Of a stretch of DNA of 28,401 nt, positions 3,745 through 12,030 are shown one piece after another. How positions within the stretch are numbered: the stretch's first letter is position 1; the number at the start of each line of letters is the position of its first letter. A program made the position numbers and the translations under genes. Origin of the DNA: a virus; the IMG/VR virus record IMGVR_UViG_3300047994_000167, positions 1-28,401 of that record. One strand, given 5' to 3'. Below the pieces are notes generated by a model that was not told the origin of the DNA, did no database searches, and saw only the letters and a program-made list of their open reading frames with translations.

Positions 3745-3865
3745 GATCTCTCTCCAGGGTTTGACTTCAAAAGTCTTGGACGGCGCGGTTAGAACCCGGC
3801 GCGCCGACTGCATCAATTCGTCATCGGGCGCGCCGGGATGGTTCCTGCTTTTCACGTGGGATCGA

Positions 3866-4228
3866 TCAATGAGGGTCGCCGCGCAGTCGGCTGCGAAGGG
3901 TCATCGTTTCGGAGTCCGAATGGTTCGCCTCGATCATGTGGGCGACCTCAACCGGATGCACGCCAAGCGCGCTGCCGACATTCTTGAAATGTACCGACAC
4001 CATTTCAACCACCACGGGGCTGTCTTCCAGACTTTCGGGCACGGATTCGGCCGTCATCTGGCACATATATGCGAAGCTGGTGATGATGTTGGCCTTCTCC
4101 CTTCCGTGCTTCGCGGCGAGTTGGTCGGCATACTGTATCATTCGCATCTGTTGCGATTTCGGGTCATAGCAGGGGACGACCGGCTCGCCGAGGGCGGGGT
4201 TGTCTTGGGGCTTTTGATCTTGGTCCAT
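3866..4228 (-). CDS. Hypothetical early protein (120 aa)
   Basis: ATG at 4228 with ATAGGAG 8 bases upstream, 120 residues. The N-terminus is a polar Pro/Asp/Gln-rich segment (MDQDQKPQDNPALGEP), followed by an alpha-helical body (YADQLAAKHGREKANIITSFAYMCQM) and a second helix around VEMVSVHFKNVGSALGVHPVEVAHMIEAN. There are no membrane spans, cysteine clusters or recognised motifs. It belongs to the leftward operon and shares the ATAGGA leader with its neighbours. Function is unknown. Confidence 0.78.
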   Translation of the reverse strand: MDQDQKPQDNPALGEPVVPCYDPKSQQMRMIQYADQLAAKHGREKANIITSFAYMCQMTAESVPESLEDSPVVVEMVSVHFKNVGSALGVHPVEVAHMIEANHSDSETMTLRSRLRGDPH

Positions 4229-4852: not shown

Positions 4853-5314
4853 TCAGGTCGCTGTTTGGTAGTCCGTGATCGCTTGGATCAAGAATTGTTT
4901 GTTCTTTTCTCGCTGCTCTTGTCGAGCAGCATCAGCAGCGGCAACAGCATCAGCGGCAGCAGCAGCAGCGGCAACAGCATCAGCAGCAGCGGCAACAGCA
5001 TCAGCGGCAGCGGCAACAGCATCAGCGGCAGCAGCAGCAGCGGCAACAGCAGCGTAAGCAGCACGGACGTTTTTCAGGTGCGCCACACTGTCTGCACACA
5101 TCCTTGCGAACCGGACACAGATATGGACTTCGACTTTTCTCTTCCCGAGAAGCCAGCAGACATCGGAGATTGAATTACTGTCAACACACTCGATCAGGGG
5201 GAACAGTTCATCGTCTGCCGCAGTCTTCCCGCGACCACTAAGGATGTCTCGCCAGCCGCTGGCACACGGGTTAAAGGATTTGATCTCGGCCAGAGATGTA
5301 TAGAGAATGGGCAC
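4853..5314 (-). CDS. Phage protein with Ala-rich heptad tandem repeat (153 aa)
   Basis: A GTG start at 5314 follows ATAGGAG by 7 bases. The N-terminal domain (residues 1-80) has a FNPCxxGW…LLG…ADDELFPLIECVDSNSISDVCWLLG pattern, which I recall from small phage proteins of unknown function. Residues ~85-130 consist almost only of Ala, Asp and Val, as DAVAAAA heptads. They are encoded by a GCN-codon tandem repeat at about 4926-5062. The C-terminus is a charged helix (ARQEQREKNKQFLIQAITDY). In related proteins this alanine region varies in length. The repeat probably forms a long rigid helix. Function is not known. Confidence 0.8.
   Translation of the reverse strand: MPILYTSLAEIKSFNPCASGWRDILSGRGKTAADDELFPLIECVDSNSISDVCWLLGKRKVEVHICVRFARMCADSVAHLKNVRAAYAAVAAAAAAADAVAAAADAVAAAADAVAAAAAAADAVAAADAARQEQREKNKQFLIQAITDYQTAT
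4926..5062. repeat. Tandem repeat encoding Ala-rich heptads
   Basis: The tract is built of a degenerate 21-base unit (GGCAACAGCATCAGCGGCAG plus one base, with CAG/CGG interruptions), present about six times. On the coding (minus) strand each 21-mer encodes DAVAAAA. The unit is trinucleotide-based, so copy-number changes keep the frame open and only alter helix length. Confidence 0.8.
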
Positions 5315-5943: not shown

Positions 5944-5959
5944 TGTTTCACGTGAATCA
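5944..5959. promoter_or_regulatory. parS-like site (15/16 to TGTTTCACGTGAAACA)
   Basis: The 16 bases TGTTTCACGTGAATCA differ at one position from the conserved bacterial centromere site bound by ParB. It covers the stop codon of the 5957-6196 gene and lies just before the AGGAG of the next gene. No ParB gene is in this window. The match is seen directly; ParB binding is inference. Confidence 0.55.
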
Positions 5960-6268: not shown

Positions 6269-6892
6269 TCAGGCCTTCAGGGCGCTGGTGGCGCGGAGGC
6301 ATGCGTCGATGTCGGCGATCTGGACGGTACCGGATTTCAGGGCGTGGCGTGCCTTATTCCGCAGATTCATCGACTGCTGACCCGGGTTCAGGGCGAGGTA
6401 CGGATTAGACGGCAGGCCCAGGGCCTTGATCAGGGCGGTCACCACCGTCTCGCGGCTGTACGCGCCGCACAGGGCTGCCAGATTATCAGCGCAGCACGGA
6501 TTGCCGTTGGGTGCCTTCAGGTAGGCCTTACGTGCCGTGACCAGGGCGAGCATCGGGCCGCTGTAACGCTGCTTCTCGTTGGACTCCAGGATTCGGCCCT
6601 CGGCGTCGCAGCCCATGTCGGCGAGGATTTGTTCGACCGGCAATTCGGTTGCGGCGGCGTCCTGCTGGGCGGTGGCGAGGCGATTGAGGCGGTCTTGTTC
6701 GGCACGGTCGGCGACGCGTTGGGCAACATCCTCTTCGACGATCTTTTTGATCGATTCGTCGGAGGGGGTCTGCTTCGCGGCCTTCAGGGCGGCGCGGCTG
6801 TCGGCCTTGCGCTGCTTCTCGGCGGCGGCCTGCTTGGCGATGCTGGTGGCGTTGCCACGGGGGGCGCGGGGGGTGGACTTGGTATTGGCCAT
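6269..6892 (-). CDS. Ala/Lys-rich protein with GQQSMNLRN domain (paralogue of 2941-3744)
   Basis: 207 residues from ATG 6892, with ATAGGA 7 bases upstream. The N-terminus is basic and Ala-rich (residues 1-45, TSIAKQAAAEKQRKADSRAALKAAKQ), followed by an acidic coiled-coil-like stretch (EEDVAQRVADRAEQDRLNRLATAQQD). A C-terminal domain begins RYSGPMLALVTARKAYLKAPNG near 109 and ends in NPYLALNPGQQSMNLRN (163-179). This domain aligns throughout with residues 154-235 of the other protein. A basic tail plus a compact domain would suit a nucleoid-like or recombination accessory role; no homologous family is known to me. Confidence 0.82.
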   Translation of the reverse strand: MANTKSTPRAPRGNATSIAKQAAAEKQRKADSRAALKAAKQTPSDESIKKIVEEDVAQRVADRAEQDRLNRLATAQQDAAATELPVEQILADMGCDAEGRILESNEKQRYSGPMLALVTARKAYLKAPNGNPCCADNLAALCGAYSRETVVTALIKALGLPSNPYLALNPGQQSMNLRNKARHALKSGTVQIADIDACLRATSALKA

Positions 6893-6981
6893 GGTGGTAT
6901 CCTATCGGGCTATTGGGGGCTGATCACTGCGACCGGCCCTACTAAAAAAGTAGCAAGCGGCGTGCCAATACAGAGAGGGCC

Positions 6982-6997
6982 ACGCAAACGTTTGCGA
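6982..6997. promoter_or_regulatory. PurR-type palindromic operator candidate
   Basis: CGCAAACGTTTGCG at 6983-6996 is a perfect 14-bp palindrome. With flanks, ACGCAAACGTTTGCGA matches 15 of 16 bases of the symmetric PurR box of enteric bacteria (a LacI-family repressor). It lies in the 218-base leader upstream of the 6892 gene. The palindrome is certain; the binding protein is inference. Confidence 0.5.
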
Positions 6998-7025
6998 GGG
7001 GGATATTCAAGAAGCGTGCCAGCTT

Positions 7026-7065
7026 GATATGACAAAACGTGTCACCACGATATGACAAAACATGT
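7026..7065. repeat. Two 17-bp direct repeats, 23-bp period
   Basis: GATATGACAAAACGTGT (7026-7042) and GATATGACAAAACATGT (7049-7065) differ at one base and start 23 bases apart, about two helical turns. On the minus strand each carries TTGTCA, similar to a -35 hexamer. The pair sits between the genes at 7111 and 6892 and is probably a regulatory binding site. Confidence 0.6.
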
Positions 7066-7110
7066 TAGTATGTGACGTCCGTGGTTATATAAAGCAAGAG
7101 TCATGCCAAA

Positions 7111-7383
7111 TCACTCCGGCATAGGGTGCTCACGGAACCACCGGGCCGAACGGCTACTCTGAACACTGTCCCGGGTGCACTGGACACATTTATAACTCTT
7201 TACCCGGCGCTCGCCGTCGAGTTCAGGATGCTTAGGACAGGGGCGACCGATATACCGAGTTACCCCAGCCGCAATAGCTGTTTCACGTGAAGCATGGCTG
7301 ACTTCCCACTGTTCGCGGGGGATGGGCCTGTAGTTCTCAGACGGGTGCTTAAATTCTTTACAATCTTTGATTCCATTAGACAT
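7111..7383 (-). CDS. Small zinc-binding protein (90 aa), first gene of leftward operon
   Basis: The start at 7383 (MSNGIKDCKEFKHPSENY) has AGGAG 8 bases upstream; an ATG at 7521 in the same frame would run through the repeat region and is rejected. Residues 41-71 carry a probable zinc site: C49-x2-H52 and C66-x2-C69, in the context TRYIGRPCPKHPELDG…YKCVQCTRD. This pattern is the zinc-binding N-terminal module that often precedes an HNH nuclease or stands alone in phage proteins; no HNH core is present here. As first gene behind the control region it may be a regulator. A parS-like site lies inside its coding sequence at 7279-7294. Confidence 0.8.
   Translation of the reverse strand: MSNGIKDCKEFKHPSENYRPIPREQWEVSHASRETAIAAGVTRYIGRPCPKHPELDGERRVKSYKCVQCTRDSVQSSRSARWFREHPMPE
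7279..7294. promoter_or_regulatory. parS-like site (15/16 to TGTTTCACGTGAAACA)
   Basis: TGTTTCACGTGAAGCA differs from the parS consensus at one base, at the same position as the site at 5944. It lies inside a coding sequence, where it encodes HASRETA on the minus strand. The two sites are 1.3 kb apart. The match is seen; function is inferred. Confidence 0.55.
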
Positions 7384-7419
7384 GGTGGATACTCCTAGGA
7401 TGAGGGGGCATGGACCCCG

Positions 7420-7428
7420 ATCATACCA
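7420..7428 (-). promoter_or_regulatory. Candidate leftward early promoter (extended -10)
   Basis: On the minus strand TGGTATGAT forms a TG-n-TATGAT extended -10 element. A start about 7 bases further on would give a leader of about 30 bases before the ATG at 7383, with its AGGAG site. There is no good -35. The same bases belong to a 13-bp repeat copy (7421-7433), so a protein bound to the repeat would block or control this promoter. Confidence 0.4.
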
Positions 7429-7441
7429 CAGACAGGGGCGG

Positions 7442-7534
7442 GTCACCAGTATGATTCTCTGGTATGATTCTCTGGTATGATTCTCTGGTATGCCTGCCAG
7501 GGGAGTCTCTGGTATGACCACTCCACTGGCATGA
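7442..7534 (+). repeat. 13-bp repeats, + orientation (left array)
   Basis: Unit consensus KYCYCTGGTATGA. Copies start at 7442 (10/13 to GTCCCTGGTATGA), 7455, 7468 and 7481 (a tandem head-to-tail run with TATGATTCTCTGG repeated exactly three times, 7450-7488), 7505 (12/13) and 7522 (weak, 9/13). The same element reappears inverted at 7805-7856. Confidence 0.85.
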
Positions 7535-7572
7535 CCGAGGGGGACGATAGTCGCCGCCTATCGGCGCAGCAG

Positions 7573-7590
7573 AGTCCATAGCTATGGACT
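7573..7590. promoter_or_regulatory. 18-bp perfect palindrome
   Basis: AGTCCATAGCTATGGACT is identical to its reverse complement over all 18 bases. It lies between the left repeat array and the 11-bp repeats, and is a candidate operator for a dimeric regulator or part of an origin. Confidence 0.65.
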
Positions 7591-7605
7591 ATGATACTTG
7601 ACCAC

Positions 7606-7638
7606 CCGCGCTATCCCCGCGCTATCCCCGCGCTATCC
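7606..7638. repeat. Three exact 11-bp direct repeats CCGCGCTATCC
   Basis: CCGCGCTATCC occurs three times head to tail at 7606, 7617 and 7628. The last copy runs into an inverted repeat (CTATC, two bases, GATAG). The 11-bp period puts each copy on the same face of the helix, as expected for cooperative protein binding. The segment is directly followed by a short A/T-richer stretch. Confidence 0.8.
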
Positions 7639-7734
7639 AGATAGCATAAAGCTCGCCCCGGGACACTCCCCCACTCCTATACCACTCCTATTCTTTTTTG
7701 TGTGTGAGGTGTCCAGCGTCGGTCATATCGGTGA

Positions 7735-7747
7735 GTCCCTGGTATGA
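7735..7747 (+). repeat. Isolated 13-bp repeat copy
   Basis: GTCCCTGGTATGA is an exact inverse of the right-array unit TCATACCAGGGAC. Together with GGTCATATC just upstream (7721-7729) it forms an imperfect inverted pair, GGTCATA…TATGACC. Confidence 0.75.
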
Positions 7748-7804
7748 CCGTCCTCGTCGTAGACTCCACGGGGCGGGGTATCACTCCATAGCGCATAGGA
7801 GTGG

Positions 7805-7856
7805 TCATACCAGGGACTCATACCAGGGACTCATACCAGGGACTCATACCAGGAGC
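7805..7856 (-). repeat. 13-bp repeats, - orientation (right array, four copies)
   Basis: TCATACCAGGGAC repeats exactly at 7805, 7818 and 7831, with an imperfect fourth copy at 7844 (TCATACCAGGAGC). The reverse complement, GTCCCTGGTATGA, is the same element as the left array, so the two arrays face each other about 270 bases apart. Confidence 0.88.
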
Positions 7857-7888
7857 ATCGTCAGCCATGGGGCCTGGGGCCTAAGTTA

Positions 7889-7900
7889 GTTAGCGCTAAC
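7889..7900. promoter_or_regulatory. Palindrome GTTAGCGCTAAC (LacI-family-type)
   Basis: A perfect 12-bp palindrome with a central CG-type step (GCGC), the design of operators bound by LacI/GalR-family repressors. A further inverted pair GTTACA (7918-7923) / TGTAAC (7940-7945) follows. The binding protein is unknown. Confidence 0.45.
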
Positions 7901-8126
7901 GGGGGCGCTTACATCTTGTTACATGATTTTGTATCTAAGTGTAACAGAGTTCGCGCTCGGGCGAATCCCCTCCCCTCTACTTGCGCGATTCGCGGGTCCT
8001 CCGGCCCGGTCGTGGGGGGCAGGCAAAAGTTCTGGAGCCAGCACTGCGTTTGCCCACAAACAAGATATCGTGAAAATTTCACAATCAACCGGGTCCCATC
8101 GTCCCTTCTCTGGGTCCCTTCTGTAT

Positions 8127-8142
8127 GGTATACTCGCGCATA
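8127..8142 (+). promoter_or_regulatory. Rightward promoter for terminase operon (extended -10), probable leaderless start
   Basis: TGGTATACT at 8127?-8134 (TG at about 8126-8127, TATACT at 8129-8134) is a strong extended -10. Transcription would begin about 7 bases later, at or next to the A of the ATG at 8142. No -35 and no ribosome site are visible, which fits an extended -10 and a leaderless message. Confidence 0.5.
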
Positions 8143-8603
8143 TGACGTCCGAACTCGCTCTCATTTCCACGGAGGAGGATACTTTCTGCTTGGCTGTGAT
8201 CGAGCATGGGGGTAATCTTCCCGCCGCATATCGAAGTGTTTTTGGTCCTGACGCTATTAATCCCGGTACCAAGGCTCGGCTCCTGATCACTCGTCCCGAG
8301 ATTGCGAAGCGTATCCAGGCGTTGACGGTCGCGGTCGAAGAACACGCACTCGTGTCGCTTGGGTCCCATCTGATCAAGTTGGCCGAGATTCGGGATCTGG
8401 CGATCCATACCGATCAGTTGAAGGTCGCGCTCGCGGCGGAGAAGTCACGTGGTGAAGTTGCCGGGTTCTATCAAGGCAAAGCGGGTCCCCAGGCGACGCC
8501 CGGGTCCTCCCCAACCGTGAATGTTTTTATTGGTCGCACCCCCGCATCGGTTGATGAATGGGCGGCGAAGCATGGTAATGCGCCGATGGTCGTCGATGTA
8601 TGA
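8142..8603 (+). CDS. terS: Terminase small subunit
   Basis: 153 residues. The N-terminal part (EEDTFCLAVIEHGGNLPAAYRSVFG) is the helix-turn-helix-like DNA-recognition region of phage small terminases. A middle helical oligomerisation region (AVEEHALVSLGSHLIKLAEIRDLAI…LKVALAAEKSRGEVAGFY) and a disordered tail ending in DEWAAKHGN follow. It binds the packaging site and hands DNA to the large subunit, whose ATG overlaps its stop (ATGA). The frame is open upstream to 7923, but that extension is low-complexity and lacks a ribosome site. The start at 8142 has no Shine-Dalgarno sequence either and appears leaderless. Confidence 0.88.
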   Translation: MTSELALISTEEDTFCLAVIEHGGNLPAAYRSVFGPDAINPGTKARLLITRPEIAKRIQALTVAVEEHALVSLGSHLIKLAEIRDLAIHTDQLKVALAAEKSRGEVAGFYQGKAGPQATPGSSPTVNVFIGRTPASVDEWAAKHGNAPMVVDV

Positions 8604-10099
8604 GCGAAGTTGCGGATTTCGTCCCCCAATTGGAGTTGCAGCCAACTGCACTCCAGGAAGCGTTCATCAATTCGCCCGCTGACGAGACACTTTACGGGGG
8701 CGCACGTGGGGGCGGAAAGACATTTGCCGTCATCATCGATTGGCTCATTCATTCGGACGCATATGGAAAATACGCGCGAGGCATCGTATTTCGCAGGACC
8801 TTGGTCGAGTTGGACGACTTTATCGAGGCGGCACGCGACGTCTTGGAGGCTGCTGGACACAATTGGAACGAAGGGAAGAAATTCTTTCGATCCCCGAAAG
8901 GTGCTGTATTCCGTTGCCGTTACCTGGAAAATGATGCCGATGCCGGAAAGTACCAAGGCCACGCCTACTCCCGCGTCTACGTGGAAGAGATCGGCAATTT
9001 CCCGTCAGAAGCGCCGGTTCGGAAACTCCTCGGTTGCTTACGTCCACCCATCGCGTCGGGTCCTCCGATCCGTTGTCAACTGAAAGCAACGGCAAACCCG
9101 GGCGGTCCGGGTCAGACCTGGGTGAAAGCGCGGTATATTGATCCCGCCCCGGCGATGACGCCATTCTCGACAGACGCCGGGAAACGCTTCAAGATATTTA
9201 TCCCCGCGAAGCTGCAGGATAATCCGCACTTGATGCAGAACGACCCCGGCTACGTTGACCGGCTGCGGGACGCGGGCAATGAGGATCTGGTTAAGGCATG
9301 GCTGGAGGGCGACTGGAATACGGTCGTCGGCCAATATTTCCGCGAATTTGATAAGGAAAAACATGTCATTCCTACCCTTGAACTACCGCCACATTGGAAG
9401 ACGCGTTATCGTGCTATGGATTGGGGCAGTTCTCGACCATTTGCCGTCTATTGGTTTGTGGTTTCTGATGGCACTGGGATTCCTGGCTGCGATCGCGTTA
9501 TTCCACGAGGCGCTCTGGTTATTTATCGAGAGCTTTACGGATGGAATGGAAAGCCAAACGAAGGGGCACGAAAACACGCCTCCGAAGTAGCGCGAATGAT
9601 CAAGCTGGTCGAGAATGATCATCAGATTATCGACGCGAATTATGAATTGAACAAGATCGACCCCGCGACATTCGCGACAAACGGGGGTCCCTCCATTGCC
9701 GAAGAAATGGCACGAGGCGGGATATGGTTCAAGCGGGCGGACAATCGCCGCGTGGGCGGTCAGGGGCCAATCGGGGGGTGGGACCAAGTCCGAAAGCGTC
9801 TCAAGGGTGAAGACGGCACCCCGATGCTGTTCATCATGGATAATTGCCACCACCTGCTGCGCACCCTTCCGATGATTCCGACCGATCCGGTGAACCTGGA
9901 CGATGTTGACACGGACTCGGAAGACCACGCAGCGGACGCGTTGCGATATGGGTGCATGGCAAGGCCATATATTCCACCCCCTCCACCGGCCCAAAAGGAC
10001 CCGAATAGCATGTTCGACCGGGCGATGACGAATTTCACGATGAACGACGCATGGAAATGCGGGTTCGGCGGAAGCAACAATATTATTGCCCGAAATTAA
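8600..10099 (+). CDS. terL: Terminase large subunit (packaging ATPase/nuclease)
   Basis: 499 residues, a usual length. ATPase domain: Walker A GGARGGGKT at 33-41, Walker B VYVEE at 126-130, coupling motif ATANPGG at 163-169. Nuclease domain: RAMDWGSSRP near 271-280 supplies the first catalytic aspartate, and DSEDHAADALRYG near the C-terminus another. The protein cuts concatemeric DNA and drives it into the prohead through the portal encoded next door. It is translationally coupled to terS by a 4-base overlap. Identification is firm. Confidence 0.97.
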   Translation: MSEVADFVPQLELQPTALQEAFINSPADETLYGGARGGGKTFAVIIDWLIHSDAYGKYARGIVFRRTLVELDDFIEAARDVLEAAGHNWNEGKKFFRSPKGAVFRCRYLENDADAGKYQGHAYSRVYVEEIGNFPSEAPVRKLLGCLRPPIASGPPIRCQLKATANPGGPGQTWVKARYIDPAPAMTPFSTDAGKRFKIFIPAKLQDNPHLMQNDPGYVDRLRDAGNEDLVKAWLEGDWNTVVGQYFREFDKEKHVIPTLELPPHWKTRYRAMDWGSSRPFAVYWFVVSDGTGIPGCDRVIPRGALVIYRELYGWNGKPNEGARKHASEVARMIKLVENDHQIIDANYELNKIDPATFATNGGPSIAEEMARGGIWFKRADNRRVGGQGPIGGWDQVRKRLKGEDGTPMLFIMDNCHHLLRTLPMIPTDPVNLDDVDTDSEDHAADALRYGCMARPYIPPPPPAQKDPNSMFDRAMTNFTMNDAWKCGFGGSNNIIARN

Positions 10100-10110
10100 G
10101 GGAACATTAA

Positions 10111-12030
10111 ATGAATACCGCAGCAGATCAACCTGAAGTCGCCCCGCTGGTTCAGACCCCTCAGCTGGCCCAATTGAACTCCCAGAAATGGCTCAATCAG
10201 GTCAAGAATGCGTATAAGAACCAGGAAAAATGGCTCACGCAGGCTGACAGGATCGTCAAGCGATTCCTGGACAAGCGCGACTCGTCCCAAGAGGCATCGA
10301 ACAAGATCAACCTGTTCACTTCGAACACTCAGATCCTGATTTCAACACTCTACGCACGTTTCCCGAAGCCGCTGGTGACCCGTGAATTCGATGATCCGAA
10401 CGACGATGTTGCCCGCGTTGGCGGGGAAATCATCGAACGATGCCTCCGGATCAAGCCGAGGGACGATTTCGACTCCGCGATGCGTTACGTGGTCCAAGAT
10501 CGACTTGTTCCGGGCCTTGGGACTGTTTGGATGCGCTATGAAAGCGATATTGAACAGAAACAGACCGAAGCAGTGATGGACGAAACGGGCACGGTTGAAC
10601 TCGTGCCCGCCTCCCAATACGAAGAAATTACAGACGAACGGGTCTGTACTGATTACGTATACTATCGGGACCTTTCTTGGTCACCTGCCCGCGTCTGGGA
10701 GGATGTCCGTTGGATCACCCGCCGCTGCCGGATGACCAAACAGGATGTCACGAAGCGCTTCGGCAAGAAGATCGCAGACCAGCTGACCTATTCGAAATCG
10801 GATTCGACCAATCAGACCGCCGCGAAGGACACGAACCGCCCCGACCACGACGATACGCGTTATGCGGACGTCTATGAATGCTGGGACAAGCCGACGAAGA
10901 AGGTCTACTGGTTCTGCGAAGGTTTCGACTACTTCCTCGATATGCGCGACGACCCGTTGGGCCTCGATGGATTCTTCCCGACGCCGCGTTTCTTGATGGC
11001 ACTGACCTCGACGGGCAATCTGATGCCCCGCCCGGACTATCTGCTGGCCCAAGACCAGTACGAAGAGCTCGATCTGGTCAACAATCGCATCACATGGCTC
11101 GAGCGGGCTATCAAAGTTATTGGTATTTATGACGGGAACAACGAGGAAATCACCCGCCTGCTGGAAGAAGGTGTCGAGAACAAGATCATCCCGACCCGAA
11201 GCTTTAACGAGTTCGCCGAGAAGGGCGGCTTTAAGGGTGCTATTGACTGGTTCCCGCTGGACCAGCTGGTGTCGGCCATGGACAAGCTCCAGAGTTACCG
11301 ACAAGTTCTCGTCAGCCAGATTTATGAGTTGACAGGCATCAGTGACATCATGCGCGGCGCGACGAAAGCGTCCGAAACCGCTGCGGCCCAACAATTGAAG
11401 GCCCAATACGGCTCGGTGAAACTTCAATTCCTGCAGATGGAAGTCGCGGCCTTCGTCGAGGAGACTCTGAAGATCAAGGCACAAATCATCACCAAGATCT
11501 TCCAGCCTGAGACGATCATCCGGATCGCGAATGTCGCGTACATGTACGACCAAGAGTTGATCCAGCAGGCGGTCCAGCTAATCAAGTCGCCGGATTGGGA
11601 CTACCGAATCGAAGTCCACGCCGATTCGATGGCGGTCCCGGAATTCTCAGCCGAACGCGATGATCGCATGGGCTTTATGCGCGCCATTGCCGAAATGATG
11701 ACCGCCGCCGCGCCTGTGATCCAACAGGATCCGGCGGCGGGCGCTGCGATGCTTGAAGTGGTCAAATGGGGTGCTGCGAGCTTCCGCAGTGGTCGCTCGA
11801 TTGAAGGTGTCCTGGACAAGGCAATCCAGTCGATCCAGAAAGCTGCCGCACAGCCGAAGCAACCGCCTGCGCCGGACCCCACGAAGATCGCTGCCGCTAA
11901 GAAAGACGAATCCCAGGCCAACCTCAACACGGCCAAGGCAAACAAGGAGAATCTGGAAACCCAGATCCTTGCGGCCACCGGATATCAACCGGGTACGCCC
12001 CCAACCACAAGCCCCGCTTCTGCAGGGTGA
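10111..12030 (+). CDS. Portal protein
   Basis: 639 residues from ATG 10111 with AAGGGA upstream. The N-terminal helices (WLNQVKNAYKNQEKWLTQADRIVKRFLD) and the segment TSNTQILISTLYARFPKPLVTREF are typical of podovirus portal proteins. The YRDLSWSPARVWEDVRWITRR and ITGISDIMRGATKASETAAAQQLKAQYGS regions (about 407-433) correspond to the conserved clip/stem part. The C-terminal 65 residues are Ala/Lys/Pro-rich. Twelve copies form the DNA channel at the capsid vertex and the docking site for terminase and tail. Position directly after terL supports it. Confidence 0.95.
   Translation: MNTAADQPEVAPLVQTPQLAQLNSQKWLNQVKNAYKNQEKWLTQADRIVKRFLDKRDSSQEASNKINLFTSNTQILISTLYARFPKPLVTREFDDPNDDVARVGGEIIERCLRIKPRDDFDSAMRYVVQDRLVPGLGTVWMRYESDIEQKQTEAVMDETGTVELVPASQYEEITDERVCTDYVYYRDLSWSPARVWEDVRWITRRCRMTKQDVTKRFGKKIADQLTYSKSDSTNQTAAKDTNRPDHDDTRYADVYECWDKPTKKVYWFCEGFDYFLDMRDDPLGLDGFFPTPRFLMALTSTGNLMPRPDYLLAQDQYEELDLVNNRITWLERAIKVIGIYDGNNEEITRLLEEGVENKIIPTRSFNEFAEKGGFKGAIDWFPLDQLVSAMDKLQSYRQVLVSQIYELTGISDIMRGATKASETAAAQQLKAQYGSVKLQFLQMEVAAFVEETLKIKAQIITKIFQPETIIRIANVAYMYDQELIQQAVQLIKSPDWDYRIEVHADSMAVPEFSAERDDRMGFMRAIAEMMTAAAPVIQQDPAAGAAMLEVVKWGAASFRSGRSIEGVLDKAIQSIQKAAAQPKQPPAPDPTKIAAAKKDESQANLNTAKANKENLETQILAATGYQPGTPPTTSPASAG

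Follow-up and report, generated by a model that had tools for sequence, protein, structure and literature searches.

Organization of the terminase locus

The DNA analyzed here is a viral record from IMG/VR, IMGVR_UViG_3300047994_000167, positions 1 to 28,401 (the window, meaning this whole stretch of 28,401 nucleotides), and our subject is the start of the terminase small subunit gene, TerS, with which the packaging and structural operon begins. Taken alone, the window TerS protein gives a weak match to PHROG 51 (E=0.087). Its relatives match small subunit profiles more clearly (PHROG 51, E=1.6e-10; PF03592, E=9.9e-6), and the gene directly adjoins, on the upstream side, that of the terminase large subunit, TerL, as expected for a small subunit. 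The features of the locus are as follows.

8106–8111, plus strand: -35 position, TTCTCT, with three of six matches to TTGACA (TTGACA or TTGACG in most relatives)
8126–8134, plus strand: extended -10, TGG-TATACT, kept in 23 of 25 clusters of relatives
8135–8141, plus strand: spacer CGCGCAT, 7 nucleotides (nt) from the -10 to the start codon, with no Shine-Dalgarno (SD) sequence
8142–8144, plus strand: ATG, the TerS start codon, at which transcription is also predicted to begin (A8142 or 1–2 bases earlier)
8142–8603, plus strand: TerS, 153 amino acids (aa), assigned from the profile matches of its relatives and its place directly before TerL
8600–10099, plus strand: TerL (PHROG 2, E=1.3e-39), with an ATG that overlaps the TerS stop (ATGA) and no clear SD sequence

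A first-pass annotation of this DNA had pointed to an extended -10 ending 7 bases before the ATG at 8142, and the letters agree, with the element running from T8126 to T8134, CGCGCAT at 8135–8141 and ATG at 8142–8144. Its remark that TerS has no SD sequence also holds, as the predicted anti-SD pairing upstream of this ATG is -2.8 kcal/mol, and on both strands most of the listed starts of other likely genes have motifs of the AGGAG, AGGA or AAGG type or overlap the previous stop. In bacteria, leaderless (TA-led) genes are marked by a TANNNT-like signal about 12 bp before the start (PMC3160421). TATACT extends from 13 to 7 nt before ATG 8142, which agrees with such a signal at about 10–12 bp, the missing SD sequence is likewise in keeping with a TA-led gene, and a comparable -10-like signal lies upstream in 32 of the 35 TerS records compared below.

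Counting both strands, an extended -10 with at least five of six matches stands 5–8 nt before 5 of the 933 ATGs in the window; in a first-order Markov resample, none of 4082 ATGs is preceded in this way. The looser pattern TGnTAnnnT before ATG, GTG or TTG gives eight entries in the window, among which only 8142 opens a reading frame longer than 35 aa; the remaining entries include an array of 13-bp repeats. A simple two-hexamer promoter scan of 6500–10500 reported no promoter. Given this empty scan and the poor -35, the window promoter rests on its extended -10, and with only three of six matches at the -35 the evidence of the window taken alone is only suggestive.

Conservation of the promoter and start codon among TerS relatives

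Searches of viral contigs for TerS returned 1, then 16 and then 37 loci, in overlapping sets. The 37 loci and the window formed a comparison set of 38, from which three loci (L314–L316) were dropped because they carry too little upstream DNA, leaving 35 records. In each of these the best sigma-70-like promoter was sought within 330 nt upstream of TerS, with its distance from the gene left free, and in 32 of the 35 it ends 5–8 nt before the TerS ATG. Because the 35 records include near-copies, counts are also given for clusters at 90% protein identity, and here the promoter lies 5–8 nt before the ATG in 23 of 25, across clusters whose median pairwise TerS protein identity is 45%. The distance from the -10 to the ATG in these 23 clusters is 6 nt in 13, 7 nt in seven, 8 nt in two and 5 nt in one. 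An automatic count gives 22 of 25 clusters (one fewer, because its criterion is stricter), where resampling of these upstream sequences gives an expectation of 0.044. No promoter at such a spacing precedes any of 52 control open reading frames (ORFs) from the same loci, which are at least 120 aa long, lie downstream of TerS and, as in the SD and folding comparisons, are mechanical ORFs rather than verified genes. With the -10 as anchor, conservation shows in TTGAC at 17 nt, in TGTGn and in TATACT, and most other columns fall below 0.3 bit. A -35 with five or six matches was seen by eye in 16 of the 23 cluster representatives, and the window is among the seven without one.

The start codons themselves were compared in 22 leaderless-type starts, a set that leaves out L311, a 52-aa broken or short frame counted within the 25 clusters. 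An SD-like motif at -18 to -5 is present in none of the 22, versus 12 of 36 control ORF starts. In all 22, structure is weaker in the first 40 nt than in inner windows, and this effect is stronger than in control ORFs (p=0.003). Furthermore, relatives have in common an N-terminus, MTSEL or MSTEL, that begins at ATG 8142 and supports a translation start there.

Read from sequence, the promoter-like element, its spacing, the absence of an SD sequence, conservation across the clade, the conserved N-terminus and the weak 5' structure point to a packaging operon whose mRNA begins without a leader. Since the relatives keep a promoter 5–8 nt before the TerS ATG, this arrangement is very probably conserved across the phage clade. 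The earlier suggestion that the transcript starts at or near the start codon gains strong support from the record and cluster counts, the empty control set and the shared N-terminus. Its judgment that a leaderless structural operon would be unusual goes too far for the TerS clade, where this layout is the rule.

In such an operon, the host RNA polymerase, carrying its principal sigma factor, would recognize the extended -10 at 8126–8134 and start RNA at A8142, or 1–2 bases earlier. The packaging and structural operon mRNA would then open with the TerS AUG, without a leader, and ribosomes, probably as intact 70S particles, would initiate on this 5'-terminal AUG without SD contact. Translation of TerL is probably coupled to that of TerS through the ATGA overlap.

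Several observations weigh against this interpretation. The best -35-like hexamer 17 nt upstream of the window's -10 is the poor TTCTCT, and the first 40 nt of the window's own TerS fold at -7.1 kcal/mol, against a clade mean of -3.4. The TerS sequences belong to one clade and are not independent of each other, and the two clusters in which TerS lies behind a leader (L022; L029 and L030) both fall within the window's own branch. Finally, leaderless mRNAs are described as rare in enterobacteria (PMC9031893).

Alternative explanations

The closest alternative is a sub-variant, leaderless in practice, in which RNA starts at A8140 or T8141 and the message begins (A)U-AUG. The base at 8140, 6 nt past the -10, is a purine (A), and because spacing in the clade ranges from 5 to 8 nt the exact start base cannot be fixed from the sequence. 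However, the two commonest spacings, 6 nt (13 of 23) and 7 nt (7 of 23), place the A of the ATG at the usual start distance from a -10. Where RNA starts at A, a pyrimidine is preferred in the preceding position, and because of this preference the T or C that precedes the ATG in 16 of 23 clusters fits a start at that A. We therefore consider a leader of 1–2 nt rather unlikely, although it deserves more weight than the alternatives that follow.

A second possibility is that the main transcript has its origin farther upstream, within the intergenic region at 7400–8100, so that TerS would have a leadered mRNA without an SD sequence and TGGTATACT would be a minor or unused promoter. The upstream region spans some 1 kb and is rich in repeats, some of which resemble an extended -10 (TGGTATGAT), and the poor -35 of the window also leans this way. 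Nevertheless, what the upstream regions, otherwise impossible to align, have kept is a promoter at constant spacing from the ATG, the next-best promoter site is lower-scoring in 34 of the 35 records, or tied (L294), and there is no SD sequence to serve a leadered mRNA, all of which make this explanation improbable.

That TerS begins upstream in frame, at ATG 7923 or GTG 8070, with the -10 inside the gene, is hardly credible: the frame is open upstream to 7890, but the N-terminus common to the relatives starts only at ATG 8142, and the in-frame extensions of the relatives are unrelated and stopped at various short distances, and both starts were rejected because the extension is not conserved.

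We also considered whether the extended -10 is merely a copy of the 13-bp repeat (CTGGTATGANTC), with which it shares the letters TGGTAT. This was rejected because the repeat differs in L003 and L022, whereas the promoter stays.

Leadered relatives and other features of the window

In the two related records L029 and L030, TTGACA-17-TGATATACT is kept and the TerS ATG lies 24 nt downstream, behind an AAGGGG that would serve as an SD sequence. In L022, an extended -10 (TGGTAGAAT) is also kept, at about 90 nt before TerS. The ends of the L022 leader (3895–4003 of that locus), GGACGGTGG and CCACCGTCC, can pair over 9 bp, and a six-codon ORF whose ATG lies 5 nt after the -10 is in frame with TerS. 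The single-sequence fold of this leader has a z of -0.9, and no similar phage DNA was found for it. A search of the window, L003 and L022 against Rfam gave only sub-threshold matches, none of them at the TerS start. In the TerS tree, the leadered members sit in the four-member branch of the window (96/96), and the leadered state needs one change, with weak support (69/76). The simplest reading is that the ancestral state was leaderless and that leaders were gained within the window's branch.

The divergent intergenic region contains 13-bp direct repeats, CTGGTATGATTCT on the plus strand and an inverted counterpart CTGGTATGAGTCC, at 7449–7516, 7732–7747 and 7805–7853. Each repeat holds GANTC, in which N is variable, and analogues of the type CTGGCACGAGTCTTG are present in L003 and L022. 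A phage regulator or replication protein probably binds these repeats. GANTC occurs 112 times in the window compared with 134 expected (standard deviation 11), and since this count is below expectation it provides no support for a GANTC-methylating host. Among the minus-strand genes, TGTTTCACGTGAA is found at 5944–5956 and 7279–7291, with a partial copy at 3850–3859; it resembles the parS partition site. A minus-strand gene region includes a simple repeat of the CAGCAGCGGCAACAG type at 4919–5060, where a sub-threshold isrG match was located.

Named phages and bacterial loci

The nearest named relative of the window capsid is that of Stenotrophomonas phage BUCT555, at 65% identity. Similar to the window, the head of its late operon reads TTGACT-17-TGCTATACT-7-ATG. 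However, in BUCT555 the first gene is a hypothetical ORF of 65 aa, for which no relatives were found in viral contigs, and TerS is second. Because BUCT555 keeps the layout, the arrangement of promoter and ATG can outlive a change of the first gene. A second promoter of this kind, TTGACA-17-TGTTAGAAT-7-ATG, lies within 7872–8001 of the BUCT555 locus. It precedes the annotated capsid start by 93 nt, in the same reading frame, and would give either a longer form of the capsid protein or a leadered mRNA.

In MW202510, the ORF that precedes TerL has TATATT 8 nt before its ATG, with a -35 of five out of six matches. In Alteromonas phage ZP6, TTGACG and TGCTATAAT are present and ACCAAAATGGAGGACGTATG comes next, making a very short leader that carries an SD sequence. 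The other capsid and terminase relatives scanned, including Mx8 and phages of Bradyrhizobium, Ruegeria and Rhizobium, have no such terminase head. Apart from L003, the TerL relatives gave only scattered weak matches in the 17 of 19 loci scanned (L013 and L014 begin inside TerL and were excluded). A profile search of genome contigs found no relative of TerS; the corresponding capsid search found 19 loci, mostly in Rhizobium, and none of the seven scanned (L258–L261, L263, L274 and L276) has such a head.

Leaderless-type starts across phage DNA

Viral contigs were also scanned for the pattern TTGAC-N15-16-TGNTATACT followed by an ATG within 3–33 nt, which gave at least 120 matches; the distance counts that follow come from the matches listed, a sample of 80 loci and not a census. 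Among these, 85 promoters have an ATG at 3–33 nt, with 14 ATGs at distance 6, two at 7, one at 8 and seven together over 9–19. An ORF of at least 50 aa without an SD motif follows 11 of the 14 ATGs at distance 6. Because ATGs peak at distance 6 and are few at 9–19, leaderless-type starts make up a distinct class in phage DNA that extends beyond the TerS clade. In many unrelated phage contigs among those listed (within L043–L227), strong extended promoters lie exactly 6 nt before long ORFs without an SD sequence, and in four of the listed loci (L065, L088, L096 and L154) similar ORFs beginning MKYVLIDTAN stand behind such promoters.

More tentatively, leaderless initiation at the packaging-operon head could be a regulatory device that the phages have retained, and not an accident of compaction. 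This start might allow 70S ribosomes to make terminase at late stages of infection, when SD-led initiation is altered, setting both subunits through the ATGA overlap, and might be one case of a broad but poorly described group of phage operons without leaders, as hinted at by the peak 6 nt before ATGs among the matches listed. A clade with a near-universal, predicted leaderless packaging head, and with two clusters near the window that are naturally leadered, offers a comparison set for the role of leaderless initiation in infection. It is also a caution for gene callers that rely on SD sequences.

Comparison with known leaderless systems

Phage mRNAs without a leader are already known, with repressor genes as the best examples. 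Our full-text literature searches turned up no account of a leaderless terminase gene, a statement limited to those searches. In bacteria, TA-led genes share the position of their upstream signal with TerS, although the survey that describes them concerns chromosomal genes and not phage operons, and leaderless mRNAs account for 9.6% of coding sequences in Caulobacter (PMC4117421).

For phages in general, the AR9 study notes that transcripts often lack a leader (PMC5312081). The first-pass annotation held that leaderless starts are known mainly from a few phage repressors, a view that is too narrow in light of the promoter class 6 nt before ATGs among the matches listed and of the cluster O mycobacteriophages, in which leaderless operon heads are predicted at promoters PL1, PR2 and PL2, the last driving a leftward gene inside the structural operon (PMC4351075). 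Cluster O differs from the present case in that its five phages are closely related and infect a mycobacterial type of host in which leaderless genes are common, and the excerpt describes no terminase gene. The lambda cI gene is cited as leaderless (PMC3342100), and the PY54 cI and cro genes were found to be leaderless by rapid amplification of cDNA ends (PMC4488713). As predicted for TerS here, the RNA of these genes begins at the AUG, with a promoter directly upstream and no SD sequence. The leaderless genes of lambda and PY54 are regulatory genes of temperate phages, whereas here the predicted leaderless start stands at the head of a packaging and structural operon, in a layout kept across the clade.
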